DNA from: an uncultured Acetatifactor sp. | GTDB lineage: Bacteria > Bacillota > Clostridia > Lachnospirales > Lachnospiraceae | Direction: 5' to 3' | Assembly: GCA_947625255.1 (NCBI GenBank) | Contig: CANQNT010000007.1 | Span: 80,558 to 144,557, forward strand | DNA: 64,000 nt | Part shown: positions 31,630-61,086 of the stretch, piece after piece | Position numbering within the stretch: the first letter of the stretch is position 1 | How the letters are laid out: each line of letters opens with the position of its first letter | Notes under the pieces: model-generated | Told to the model about the DNA's origin: nothing | The model's input: the letters and a program-made list of their open reading frames with translations, nothing else | The model's database searches: none | Position numbers and translations under genes: made by a program

Positions 31630-31894
31630 CTCACGATAATCTCCTTTTCTGATATTCTGCAAGCCTTCCGATACGGACATCCTCCGATGCGGCACTGTCC
31701 ATATCATCCCCCATAATCATCCCATCCATTGATTTCGTTGCTGATCATTTTCCATCCTCGATGTTTTAAGCTTTCTATTCTGATTTTCAGCCGCTTATAA
31801 CATATTAAACTCTTTTTAACTTTTCTTCAACCCTAATTCGACAATTATTGACTGAATTTATCGTTCCGTATCTCACTTTTCCCGTCAAAAAACA

Positions 31895-31934
31895 CCCTCA
31901 AATAGGGTATCCGGTCCAAGATCCTACTTGAGGG
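31895..31934 (-). terminator. Rho-independent terminator of the MutS-like operon
   Basis: CCCTCAA-TAGG arms with two mismatches form a hairpin about 20 bp downstream of the coiled-coil gene, followed on the minus strand by TTTTTT. The rest of the 31.71-31.96 kb gap holds the upstream region of the glycosyltransferase gene. Confidence 0.75.
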
Positions 31935-31955
31935 CGGCATATCATCATAAATTTT

Positions 31956-32891
31956 TCATATTTCCTTTACTTTCCGCTCCCTTGCCTCCTGCGCGGCGGT
32001 CAGACATTTCTCCGCGTCGGCGCGCATGTTCCTGAGATGTTCCAGCACCCTGCTGATTTCCCCTTTCACTTCCTCCACACGCTTCAAAGACTCTTCAATC
32101 TTCCTGAGAACTGTCCAATCCACAAACAAGCCGTCAAAAAAGTAATCCGCGAACCGCAGGAAACCGTTGATACTGACCTTCAGCCTTGCATCTATGGTTA
32201 CGTCCGCCAGCTCCGTACGAAATCGGTCAAGCTCCACCTGGAGCGTTTCCACCAGCTCCTGGGCTTCATCCAACCGACCGTGCTTGACCAGGTCCGCAAT
32301 CAAATCCCCTCCCAGCAGATCCCAGGCGGCCCATCGGTTCGCGCTGCCAAGCCGGTCCAGGATACGTTCCGTCGTCCCCAGGGCAGTGGCGCCGGCGCTG
32401 ATCGCCTCATCAATCTCTCGAACTTCACTCGTCAGACGCGTAATTTCTTCCTCCAGACGCAGGACTTCCTCCGCTTCCGGTGTCCCGGAAGCTTTGATGG
32501 CAGCGGCTTTCTCCTCCAGAAGCTTTGCATATCGTTTTTCACAGCCACGCAGCGAGGCTTCCTCTTCCTGATATCTGCGCAAATCCTCCTTTACGGCGGC
32601 CAGCTCCCGCACCGCCGCATCATATTTGACCGCCGCGGCACAGGCTTCCTTTTTTTCCTTATCCAGCTTCTGATCCAGCTTGCCGACCACGCGATAAAAA
32701 TAATTGGCCAGACTTCGTCCTTCCAGCTGGTCTACATCCTTTTGCTCGATTTCTTTCTCCACTTCCAGACTGAGCACCTTTTGTTCCAATTCGCGCCGTT
32801 CCTCCCGCAGCCGGGACAAAAGAGTATCCAGCCGTTGTTTTCTCAGTATCTGTTCCTGCAGTCTTTGCAGTTCTCCGTTCTCCATAGCCAT
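31956..32891 (-). CDS. Coiled-coil protein of the MutS-like operon
   Basis: 311 aa, rich in Glu, Lys, Arg and Leu. Residues about 5-65, 75-190 and 265-311 show heptad patterns of long coiled coils. A short less charged centre (ANRWAAWDLLGGDLIADLVKHG, INGFLRFADYFFDGLFVDWTVL) may be a globular hairpin tip. No known catalytic motif, signal peptide or membrane segment. Its start overlaps the stop of the second MutS-like gene (TGATG), so production is coupled. The arrangement suggests a structural partner of the MutS-like pair (inference). I do not recognise a named family. Confidence 0.7.
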   Translation of the reverse strand: MAMENGELQRLQEQILRKQRLDTLLSRLREERRELEQKVLSLEVEKEIEQKDVDQLEGRSLANYFYRVVGKLDQKLDKEKKEACAAAVKYDAAVRELAAVKEDLRRYQEEEASLRGCEKRYAKLLEEKAAAIKASGTPEAEEVLRLEEEITRLTSEVREIDEAISAGATALGTTERILDRLGSANRWAAWDLLGGDLIADLVKHGRLDEAQELVETLQVELDRFRTELADVTIDARLKVSINGFLRFADYFFDGLFVDWTVLRKIEESLKRVEEVKGEISRVLEHLRNMRADAEKCLTAAQEARERKVKEI

Positions 32892-34456
32892 CAGCTTTCC
32901 CTCCTTGTCAAATACCGTTCCACCAGTTCCCGTTCGTAAATCTCCTTTTCCGGTCTCCCCCGCACAATGCCAAAGGTCTTGCGGACGCCTCCCTCCGCAT
33001 CCATAAGCTGCTCCGTCACATAATTTAACGCCCTTTCTCCCTCCGCGAGCTCCAGTTTCCCATCCTCCGCCCAGTCAGCCAGCCGGCTCAAATGGGTGAC
33101 AAACACCAGATGAGAATGGGTCCGTGAAAAGGCCCCCAGCACTTCCGACAAAATAACGCTTCCCTCCGCCTCCGAGGTGCTGGAAAGAATCTCATTGAAC
33201 AAAACCAGGCTCCCCCGCCTCAACTGCCCCGCCATGGTTCTGATCTGCACCAGCTCCTGCTCCAGTCTGCCGTGCACGGCGCGTGTATCCTCTGTTCCCG
33301 CGAACAAAGTACCAATATAAGGAACCGCTGACGCACGGTAACTGACCGCCGGTACCGGGAACCCCAGCTGCGTCAGGACCTGGGCGCAACCAAGCGCCTG
33401 CAAAAAAGTGGTCTTGCCGCCGCTGTTAAACCCAGTGATCACGGCGATTCTGCCATCCACATTGGAATAGTCATTTCCCCGGATGCCGGCCACACCTCCC
33501 GGATTCCCCTGGCTATGACATTTGGCCAGCAGACGAAGCGGCAGCAAGTTCGTTGCCTCCATGCGTCCTTCTCCTTTTTCTCCTACCTCCGGCAGACAAT
33601 AAGGCACTCCCAGTTCCCGATAGAGCGCAAGAAGCCGGATCCCTGTCTGATAAAAAAACAGGGAATTCCGAATCCGATGGAAAGGGCGCACCACGGCGCC
33701 GTTGAGTCGGGCCGCAAAATCACACAAGCGCACCAGCGTTTTCCTGTAAATTTCCTCCAGGTTATTGCGCAGGACCAAATCCCCTTCCGTGGAAATCAGG
33801 CACTCTTCATCAATGGCTTTCTTTTTCAGAAATCCTTTTTCTTTTCGCATATAGGTGTTTTCCGGGTAAAGACGCGCGATCCATACCTTGTTCATGGCGC
33901 CTCCCCAGCCATAATCCACGTCATATTCCACCGCGCCCGCGTCCAGGACCTCCCGCAAGATGCCAATGATTTCCCGCAGCCTCTCCTGCGCCTCTCCCGC
34001 TTCCAAAAAATGTGCGATCCTTGCCAGCACCTGAGAGCGGGGAGCTTTCCGCAACTCTAAATGAGCCGACTGAAGCACTTGGAGATTCCCCTCCAGGAGC
34101 GCCAGATACTCCTCCAGACGCTTATGAAGCGGCTCCTGAGAGGACTCCCAAATATTCAGATTCCGCCTGGGCACATCGTCCCGAAGCCGCCCGCAGATTT
34201 CAAGACACCCTTCCAGAAAAGCGGGATCCTCCGTCAAATCCCGCAGCACACTTTGCCGAAATAAGATGACCTCCCTGTCCTCTGGCAGATTGCGCACCTC
34301 TTCGCAAAGCTGTTCATACTCTTCCCTGCGCAGACGCAAATCTGTGCAGAGCTCGTCAAACAACAGATCATGAATCAGGCTGTCGCTGACACGAACCCCT
34401 TCCCTCTGCGCCTGCCGTGTTTTTTCATCCGGATATAACAAATCAAACTCTATCAT
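32891..34456 (-). CDS. MutS-like ATPase B
   Basis: About 521 aa from MIEFDLLYPDEK (ATG 34456, GAGGG upstream; the track start lies 42 codons earlier in non-conserved sequence). Helical lever-like region first, then the MutS C-terminal ATPase: Walker A TGFNSGGKTTFLQALG (about residue 325), Walker B SLVLFNEILSSTSEAEG and FVTHLSRL. The mismatch-recognition domain (Phe-x-Glu) and the Smr nuclease tail of MutS2 are missing. It is shorter than MutS (about 850) and MutS2 (about 790). It follows the paralogous gene 83 bp upstream, suggesting a heterodimer. Function unknown. Confidence 0.75.
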   Translation of the reverse strand: MIEFDLLYPDEKTRQAQREGVRVSDSLIHDLLFDELCTDLRLRREEYEQLCEEVRNLPEDREVILFRQSVLRDLTEDPAFLEGCLEICGRLRDDVPRRNLNIWESSQEPLHKRLEEYLALLEGNLQVLQSAHLELRKAPRSQVLARIAHFLEAGEAQERLREIIGILREVLDAGAVEYDVDYGWGGAMNKVWIARLYPENTYMRKEKGFLKKKAIDEECLISTEGDLVLRNNLEEIYRKTLVRLCDFAARLNGAVVRPFHRIRNSLFFYQTGIRLLALYRELGVPYCLPEVGEKGEGRMEATNLLPLRLLAKCHSQGNPGGVAGIRGNDYSNVDGRIAVITGFNSGGKTTFLQALGCAQVLTQLGFPVPAVSYRASAVPYIGTLFAGTEDTRAVHGRLEQELVQIRTMAGQLRRGSLVLFNEILSSTSEAEGSVILSEVLGAFSRTHSHLVFVTHLSRLADWAEDGKLELAEGERALNYVTEQLMDAEGGVRKTFGIVRGRPEKEIYERELVERYLTRRES

Positions 34457-34539
34457 CCTGCACACCCTCGACAAACCGCCTCTGCAGCCATACGCCGCCA
34501 TACCTCCGCCGCCGGTTCCGACATTTCGGCCGCGCCTCG

Positions 34540-36156
34540 TCAGCCACCGCTTTCCGCCGCCTCCGCCGAAAGCACCTCCCACAATCCTTCATAGGTGACG
34601 CCGCATTGTTCCGCTATATCCCTGGCATAGGACTGGCGATAGGACTCCTGCCGCAGGATATGGAATGTCCTCTGCCGGGATTGCCGACACTCCGCCATAC
34701 CAGCCACCAGACTATAAAAGCGCCCCTCTCCCAGTTCATCGATCAGCTCATGGTAATGGGTCACCAGGCCTCCCACGCAGCCGCCCCGGTCAAATTCAGA
34801 CATCAGTCGTTTTAAGAGCGTCACCGCCACCGGACGCTGGGTACTGGTGAAAGGTTCGTTCAGCAATATCATGTCCCCGGCTTTCATGGAATCCAGAATT
34901 TTCTTCATTCTTTGAAGCTCCTGCTCAAAGCGCCCCACCATGGCCGTTTCCTCCTCGTCCCGGCCAAACAGCGTATGCACCTTTCCTGTCATTTCCAGCA
35001 CCGCTTCCCGGGCCGGCACGTACATCCCGATCTGGGCCAGACACTGAATGAGACCCACACTCCTTAGAAAAGTGGTCTTCCCGCCCTGATTGGCCCCCGT
35101 CAAAAGGAACAGGCGCTGATTTCCCTGGAAACAATAATCATTGGCCACCGCGTGAAATCCCTCTCCCCGCTGAAAAAGGTTCCTTCCCAAAGTCATGTCA
35201 TAGGCCCCACGCACATGAAAGCCCCCGTCCCGCACCACAAAGCGCGGCAGACAAAAAGGGAAGCCCGCCTTTTCATATTCCCGCCGAAACCGCACACAGG
35301 CCAAATAAAAAACCAGCTCATTGGCAAACTGTAAGAACGGCCAAAAGGAAAAGCCTCCATATTCCCGGTACAGCGCATCCGCCTCTTTCCAGAGCTCCGG
35401 ATCCTTCCGATCCACATATTCTTGTATTTTTTTATCCAAAACCGTCAAATCATTCTGATACACGCCTACGGAAAAATCATAGTCCTCCAAAAAGAAAGAC
35501 GCCGCTTCCTGCAGACACGCCAAAAAGGAGGCGTTTTCCCCCTCTCTGGTATCATCCAATACCGCGTTGCGGCATTTTTGCTCCAAATCCTTATTAATCA
35601 GAAAATTCCGCGGCATTTTTTGCCGCACCCGATCCAGAAACGCCTCCAGTCGCCGCCGCTTCCTGCACGCATCCTGACCTGACACCGGTACCGCCAGCCT
35701 TCGAATCCCCTCGGCCAGGGGAGAATCCAAAGGAAGCTGTTCAAGCAGACGTCCCAGGGCGCCATCCATATCCGCCTGAAATTCCAGAAGCATCTGCAGA
35801 TAAAACAATTTCTGCCCCAGCCCGTCCCGGGTTCCCCGGATATGCCCCAGCTTCTTTTGGGACTCCGAGATACTGCCGACCGTCCAGACAGCCGCTTCAT
35901 ACAACTCCCGGTTCTCATACAATGCTTCCAGAATCCGCTGTCTGTAAAGCACCGTGGAAAGAGCGGCACAAGGATGCAGAAACACCTGTTCAAAATCAAA
36001 CCGTTCTCCGAACCTGCCCAACCGGCAGACTTCCCTATAAAGCGCGTCCAGATTCAAATCCTTAATGTAGGATTCGTCTCCTGTTTTCCGCTCCTCCATC
36101 CATTCCTGATACCGTTCCCCGCAGTCCCATAACAGACTGAAATACCCGTCATCCAT
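34540..36156 (-). CDS. MutS-like ATPase A
   Basis: 538 aa. An N-terminal helical region (about 1-340) lacks a recognisable mismatch-binding domain. The MutS ATPase follows with Walker A TGANQGGKTTFLRSVG, Walker B MILLNEPFTSTQRPVA and the conserved-His segment GLVTHYHELIDEL. GAGGAATTGGA precedes the ATG and an extended -10 lies 74 bp upstream. First gene of a three-gene operon with ATPase B and the coiled-coil protein. A and B are clearly paralogous but diverged, like the two subunits of a heteromeric MutS-type machine. A role in DNA or recombination intermediate processing is likely from the family but unproven. Confidence 0.75.
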   Translation of the reverse strand: MDDGYFSLLWDCGERYQEWMEERKTGDESYIKDLNLDALYREVCRLGRFGERFDFEQVFLHPCAALSTVLYRQRILEALYENRELYEAAVWTVGSISESQKKLGHIRGTRDGLGQKLFYLQMLLEFQADMDGALGRLLEQLPLDSPLAEGIRRLAVPVSGQDACRKRRRLEAFLDRVRQKMPRNFLINKDLEQKCRNAVLDDTREGENASFLACLQEAASFFLEDYDFSVGVYQNDLTVLDKKIQEYVDRKDPELWKEADALYREYGGFSFWPFLQFANELVFYLACVRFRREYEKAGFPFCLPRFVVRDGGFHVRGAYDMTLGRNLFQRGEGFHAVANDYCFQGNQRLFLLTGANQGGKTTFLRSVGLIQCLAQIGMYVPAREAVLEMTGKVHTLFGRDEEETAMVGRFEQELQRMKKILDSMKAGDMILLNEPFTSTQRPVAVTLLKRLMSEFDRGGCVGGLVTHYHELIDELGEGRFYSLVAGMAECRQSRQRTFHILRQESYRQSYARDIAEQCGVTYEGLWEVLSAEAAESGG

Positions 36157-36229
36157 TCCAATTCCTCAAGCGTTCCTCGCCCCTGCGGCAATTGCCGCTC
36201 CAGCCTTGAAAGTTTCTCCGAACACTTAC

Positions 36230-36238
36230 ATCATAGCA
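36230..36238 (-). promoter_or_regulatory. Extended -10 promoter element of the MutS-like operon
   Basis: TGCTATGAT on the minus strand fits the extended -10 pattern TGnTATnnT, 74 bp before the first ATG. The -35 is weak. It lies between trpA and the MutS-like gene and suggests separate transcription from trp. Confidence 0.45.
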
Positions 36239-36272
36239 CAGATCGGTATTTTTGGCTATGCCTGAATCAAAA

Positions 36273-60734: not shown

Positions 60735-60766
60735 AAAAAATCCCTCACTGCTCGCACAGTAAGGGA
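60735..60766 (-). terminator. T-box-controlled terminator upstream of pheS
   Basis: TCCCTTACTG and CAGTGAGGGA arms form a stem closed by a short loop and followed on the minus strand by TTTTTT. It is the terminator alternative of the T-box switch. Confidence 0.88.
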
Positions 60767-61086
60767 CGAAATTGCTCCGCGGTACCACCCCGATTCCCAT
60801 CCTTTGATGGGCGACTCAAACGCGTAACGAGCGTCTCACGTTCCGGAATAATGAGTTCTCCTGACATAACCCTTTCAGAAAACCGTTCCTCCGAACGGCT
60901 CCGGTGCGAAATTCAGGACTTCATCCACGCTTAAGGAAGCTTCCAGCCAACGGCTTCCCCTCTCTGTAAGAGCATGAGTCCCTACTGAACACCCTCAACG
61001 CCTTTTCTCTTTCTGAATATCGGGATGGCGCGTTTCCCGCACCATCCCATACCAACAGCGGATGCTCTTTTCGACACATCCAATAA
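60735..61086 (-). promoter_or_regulatory. Phenylalanine T-box riboswitch leader of pheST
   Basis: GGGGTGGTACCGCGGAGCAA (60772-60791, minus strand) is the T-box antiterminator sequence. In the stem I region CTGAATTTCGCACC offers UUC at 60908-60910 as specifier codon, fitting tRNA-Phe and the genes controlled. Uncharged tRNA-Phe would allow read-through. The specifier is assigned by position and codon match. Confidence 0.9.

Follow-up and report, generated by a model that had tools for sequence, protein, structure and literature searches.

An adjacent pair of MutS-like genes downstream of trpA in a Lachnospiraceae genome is a predicted divergent member of a recurrent two-gene ATPase family

Bacterial MutS proteins have been described as typically homodimeric (PMC12292046). 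In MutS2, which like the proteins described here has no front domains, a wide opening accommodates Holliday junctions or D-loops, and some MutS2 proteins have ribosomes as their target (PMC12292046). Another MutS family, MutS7, carries an HNH domain (PMC3166940). Furthermore, Weinberg et al. reported in 2010 that crcB-motif RNAs are found upstream of mutS genes (PMC2864571). The six-gene fluoride operon that was tested in Enterobacter cloacae FRM does not include mutS, and our literature search found no paper that explains the role of the crcB-RNA-linked mutS genes and none that names the pair of MutS-like genes described here, A and B, as a system. An earlier note on this DNA knew of no described system of this composition, a statement that is too strong in view of the 2010 report on mutS genes and the crcB (fluoride) RNA.

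The window, by which we mean the whole 64,000-nucleotide stretch of DNA that was analyzed, contains three real, open, and co-directional genes on the minus strand, as had been claimed: mutS-A (34540..36156), encoding an A-type MutS-like ATPase of 538 amino acids; mutS-B (32891..34456), encoding a B-type MutS-like ATPase of 521 amino acids; and a gene for a coiled-coil protein of 311 amino acids (31956..32891). The mechanically called open reading frame of mutS-B starts with a GTG at 34582, but we preferred the ATG at 34456, which is the most plausible start given the N-terminus common to its relatives. Because this ATG lies 83 nucleotides past mutS-A, the A and B frames do not overlap at this locus. 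The only touching genes are mutS-B and the coiled-coil gene, whose start lies within a TGATG at 32891 that is shared with the mutS-B stop. Upstream and in the same direction are trpA, trpB, trpF, and trpC (identified by eye), with mutS-A downstream of trpA, and a glycosyltransferase-like gene lies downstream of the three-gene unit. A strong terminator-like hairpin and U run follow the coiled-coil gene on the minus strand (about 31893..31936; -24.7 kcal/mol, z = -4.3), and the unit does appear to have the terminator of its own that the earlier note described. The promoter described with it fared less well: the promoter-like site TAGCCA-17-TATGAT with a TG (36230..36258, minus strand) is not above chance, with 3 sites of this kind found versus 2.8 expected. 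The minus-strand gap between trpA and mutS-A (36157..36272) has no Rfam match and no fluoride riboswitch. Elsewhere in the window, a T-box leader (60759-61007, minus strand; RF00230, 100.5 bits) is the sole Rfam match at the gathering score.

In Pfam, MutS domain V alone was above the cut-off in both ATPases (E = 5e-12 and 1e-19), and this is the one Pfam family common to all members of the two clades, A and B, to which we compare them below. Neither ATPase had a Pfam match to the mismatch-recognition domain (domain I), the connector (domain II), or Smr, which agrees with the proposal that the mismatch-recognition domain and the Smr nuclease are missing. There was also no HNH domain found in A or B, and MutS7, which has one, is therefore an unlikely identity. 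The two adjacent genes encode distant paralogues, as first suggested, with 29% identity across 263 residues (E = 2e-28). When the ATPases were compared with NCBIfam families, the cut-offs were missed for MutS1 (63 and 33 bits versus 642), MutS2 (62 and 59 bits versus 400), and KamC (NF052383; 73 and 61 bits versus 300), and no known MutS family of established function fits the pair. KamC had been considered as the parent family from its NCBIfam match and was rejected, as it groups with MutS2 in the tree and keeps the Asp-Glu (DE) and Ser-Thr (ST) motifs. In the ATPase domain, profiles of clades A and B match structures of MutS, MutS2, and MSH proteins, and the B profile aligns to MSH2 340-799 and MSH3 357-795. 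Using domain limits of MSH2 and MSH3 that we took from general knowledge, an alignment from MSH2 340 or MSH3 357 onward implies that B keeps the core part without the mismatch-binding and connector parts. AlphaFold models of A and B had a mean pLDDT of 41, too low to be of use. A search with the single protein P0002 returned only MutS genes of Gracilibacteria/Patescibacteria, which served solely to give an alignment some shallow depth.

Members of the A/B family are present in 29 of 200 sampled genomes of the window's own family, the Lachnospiraceae, in many cases as two neighboring genes and in some as a lone gene. Further members were found in the same genus, in other families of the class Clostridia, and on plasmids of Proteobacteria, Actinomycetota, and Bacilli, the carriers being Klebsiella, Salmonella, Citrobacter, Enterobacter, Burkholderia, Caballeronia, Rhodococcus, Mycobacterium, Tsukamurella, Rubrobacter, and Alicyclobacillus. 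Trees set the family apart from MutS1, MutS2, and KamC at 100/100 and resolve clades A and B and single-gene groups within it. The sister of clade B is window B together with a protein from genome G566 (support for the set, 100/98). In the larger, quick tree, window A groups with clade A (98), but in the careful tree it is basal with weak support, and both window proteins are on long branches. A search of 397 genomes of the Lachnospiraceae-like family at E <= 1e-28 found nothing related to window B, which makes the window pair an outlier among its own kin. Its genes are adjacent and co-directional, run A then B, and both encode the Asn-Glu (NE) and Gly-Arg (GR) motifs described next. By these sequence features, the window pair is a real, if divergent, member of a recurrent paired MutS-like family. 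Clustering revealed no conserved neighbors of the Lachnospiraceae pairs.

The ATP-site motifs are distinctive. Walker A is intact in both window proteins (GANQGGKTT in A, codons at about 35071-35097; GFNSGGKTT in B, about 33407-33433), but in Walker B the Asp is exchanged for Asn in both (LLNEPFTST in A, Asn433; LFNEILSST in B, Asn421). Therefore, the earlier statement that both proteins keep Walker A and B stands for Walker A, with NE rather than DE at Walker B. The MutS signature reads GRFEQEL in A and GRLEQEL in B, with Ser-Thr replaced by GR in each. Across the family, Asn-Glu at Walker B is found in 37 of 37 A proteins, 37 of 38 B proteins (the one exception appears misaligned), and 21 of the 32 remaining members, versus Asp-Glu in all 21 of the MutS1, MutS2, and KamC sequences compared. 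All but one of 107 family members have Gly-Lys or Gly-Arg in place of Ser-Thr in the signature. These altered motifs argue for a different working cycle.

Several other MutS-like proteins were seen alongside these. Single-gene relatives in Lachnospiraceae-like genomes (L058, L061, L063, L067, L072, and others) form their own tree groups, and one such group has DE at Walker B, either reverted or kept, together with a GRLESEC signature. The genome of the window also encodes a third MutS-like kind (G000:C56:7227-7775; L003, L087), a protein of ~560 amino acids with DE at Walker B and a hydrophobic N-terminus resembling membrane helices.

Gene order is A then B in all but one of the pair loci examined, and the two frames overlap in 24 of 31 pairs when frames are called mechanically with uncurated start codons. 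In a mirror-tree comparison of 30 pairs, the A and B distances were correlated with r = 0.90, the best of 5000 permutations reaching 0.46; r was 0.87 without congeners. As this method does not remove common inheritance, the correlation is supportive only. Genome G307 has a natural fusion of two family members (L203:8037-11387, plus strand; 1116 amino acids), the halves of which belong to single-gene groups and not to clades A and B proper. Some relatives presumably work alone, given that single-gene members exist. The recurrent pairs, correlated evolution, overlapping genes, and natural fusion nevertheless support a dedicated heteromeric ATPase, and we infer an A/B heterodimer as the simplest account of these comparisons. 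The dedicated heteromeric machine of the earlier note is thus upheld for the two MutS-like proteins but not for the coiled-coil protein as a third component.

We examined the link to fluoride by scanning 14 loci outside the Lachnospiraceae, on plasmids or in genomes G300, G391, and G636, for RNA families. Seven of these loci were placed in the trees, where they form one branch together with L062 and L076 from the window's own family; the other seven encode relatives 35-47% identical to the Alicyclobacillus A protein. A fluoride riboswitch was found within about 4 kb of the pair at 13 of the 14 loci. It is immediately upstream of gene A at L120, L121, L205, L206, L275, and L278, and apparently at L274, an unannotated record, and at L119, L277, and L279 it stands at the front of a gene series consisting of antiporter, uspA, A, and B. 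The scan detected none in Tsukamurella (L276), L062, or L076. Annotated neighbors on the plasmids include crcB, CLC-type channel, enolase, phosphoglycerate mutase, pyrophosphatase, DUF190, and P-type ATPase genes. Two loci of this branch also have a dynamin-like gene beside the pair: an annotated dynamin-family gene in Burkholderia multivorans (L278:10092-12209, minus strand) and an open reading frame read by eye in the clostridial genome G636 (L205:10053-11861, plus strand).

Neither fluoride riboswitches nor fluoride genes were found upstream of the window pair or elsewhere in the window, and a genome-wide scan with strict filters found no fluoride riboswitch in the genome of the pair. There was also none on any of the 34 family-bearing contigs from the 29 genomes or in the further loci scanned, the one exception being G341, where a riboswitch adjoins a truncated B-like gene. 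The window pair is about 22-25% identical to the pairs of the fluoride branch and lies outside that branch. As no riboswitch was found in the window, its genome, or the Lachnospiraceae contigs, a fluoride role of the window pair is not supported directly.

To account for these results, we give slightly better than even credence to an A/B heterodimeric, ATP-driven clamp with a role in stress, triggered by fluoride in one branch, of which the coiled-coil protein is probably no subunit; within it, we infer the heterodimer, the clamp action, and the stress role. A and B would be the bacterial counterpart of the MSH heterodimers of eukaryotes, minus the mismatch sensor, and would hold ATP at two unlike sites between their ATPase domains. 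This ATP would drive the opening and closing of a wide lever/clamp ring that encircles a bulky target, which the clamp may protect or clear under stress. In one branch of the family, that stress would be fluoride; the window pair is a divergent member of the family and lies outside that branch. The putative target could be branched DNA, to which we give a little less than an even chance; a protein or enzyme is a less probable candidate, the ribosome less probable again, and any other target improbable.

The earlier note had made the coiled-coil protein part of the machine, and in this reading it would serve the MutS-like pair as a structural subunit or an adaptor. Its start within the mutS-B stop and the single terminator after it imply that the three genes probably share one message here, but its distribution makes such a subunit very improbable. 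The coiled-coil family is present in 59 of 200 genomes and co-occurs with the MutS family in 8, versus 8.6 expected (p = 1.0), and the window's contig is the only one in this sample that carries both. The conservation of the coiled-coil gene beside the pair, proposed as a check, was not seen at any other locus, including the related pairs L194 and L196, which have no coiled-coil gene after them. In the congener G238, the gene for an orthologue of the coiled-coil protein (53% identity) also lies downstream of these trp genes, separated from them by several others, a sugar-catabolic cassette among them; the MutS pair of that genome is absent from the locus and located on a different contig. Two other congeners have unrelated genes in the slot after trpA. 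The slot thus varies by member of the genus (L263, L271, L272), holding the MutS pair and coiled-coil gene, the sugar cassette and coiled-coil gene, or unrelated genes. The simplest reading is of a variable slot in which the coiled-coil gene would be the older resident and the MutS pair would have arrived beside it. The coiled-coil protein is probably a chance neighbor and not a subunit, and a local functional link to the pair by way of the probable shared message is conceivable but unsupported. The last 140 residues of the coiled-coil protein also occur alone (for example, L124:3983-4399, plus strand), as small unannotated proteins of ~140-170 amino acids in many genomes and on the Butyrivibrio plasmid pCY186.

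Other readings concern what the pair acts on. It may serve in DNA maintenance, as a MutS2-like clamp on recombination intermediates in general stress that is not specific to fluoride. The domain make-up, which is that of MutS2 without Smr, and the binding of Holliday junctions and D-loops by MutS2 (PMC12292046) are consistent with this, but there is no nuclease domain, no conserved recombination gene adjoins the pairs, and the altered ATP-site motifs argue for a different working cycle; we consider it somewhat unlikely. We regard as unlikely, and offer tentatively, the bolder proposal that A and B are an obligate heterodimer with noncanonical ATP sites whose target would be a stress-poisoned complex, either an inhibited enzyme or a stalled ribosome, and not mismatched DNA; one branch would have been recruited to fluoride regulons, with the Lachnospiraceae and window pairs serving another stress. 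That the pair is a reactivase or remodeler, freeing a protein target such as a poisoned enzyme (fluoride inhibited in the fluoride branch) and not acting on DNA, is likewise unlikely. KamC, a MutS-like ATPase without the front and Smr domains, is named a lysine 5,6-aminomutase reactivase by NCBIfam, and the pair-bearing fluoride clusters also contain genes for enolase and pyrophosphatase, the usual fluoride targets. However, this analogy is a loose one, as KamC branches with MutS2 and retains both DE and ST, and the Lachnospiraceae pairs have no conserved enzyme neighbor. The earlier note had also suggested anti-phage defense, which we find extremely improbable. Patchy distribution, plasmid carriage, and an architecture of ATPase plus coiled coil would suit such a role, but the PADLOC matches are low scoring and at the level of P-loop or coiled coil only, the pairs have no conserved defense neighbors, and the informative contexts point to ion stress. 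Searched with the A and B profiles, viral contigs yielded no relative, and phage records gave only partial matches to P0002, mostly to its ATPase domain, with no paired copy. Overall, the A/B family is recurrent, and neither the three-protein nor the defense reading is supported.

Compared with known systems, the pair has the same core/lever and ATPase domains as MutS2, which is the best structural sequence match for A, and both lack the mismatch-recognition and connector domains. Unlike MutS2, the pair has no Smr, consists of two unlike subunits from one operon instead of one, and has NE and GK/GR in place of DE and ST. KamC is likewise a stand-alone MutS-like ATPase of about 500 amino acids without Smr, but it clusters with MutS2 and retains both DE and ST, and the pair scores far below its cut-off. 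With MSH2-MSH3 and MSH2-MSH6, the pair would share two unlike MutS subunits and the composite ATP sites expected of them, and the B profile aligns with MSH2 and MSH3 from the core on; the pair differs in having no mismatch-binding or connector domains, in being bacterial and encoded in one operon, and in its ATP-site motifs. Given that bacterial MutS proteins are typically homodimeric, a bacterial MutS heterodimer, if true, would be a new arrangement. Like the genes of the window, the crcB-RNA-associated mutS genes (Weinberg et al. 2010, PMC2864571) lie side by side, belong to clades A and B, and encode proteins that share the motifs of the window pair and lack the same domains, whereas the window pair stands outside their branch at low identity, with no fluoride riboswitch or fluoride genes. 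The comparisons show that these crcB-RNA mutS genes belong to a single deep family of two co-evolving genes, marked by an ATP-site code of its own, and that Lachnospiraceae carry relatives without the riboswitch. With both in hand, the questions of the heterodimer, its substrate, and a fluoride phenotype become testable.
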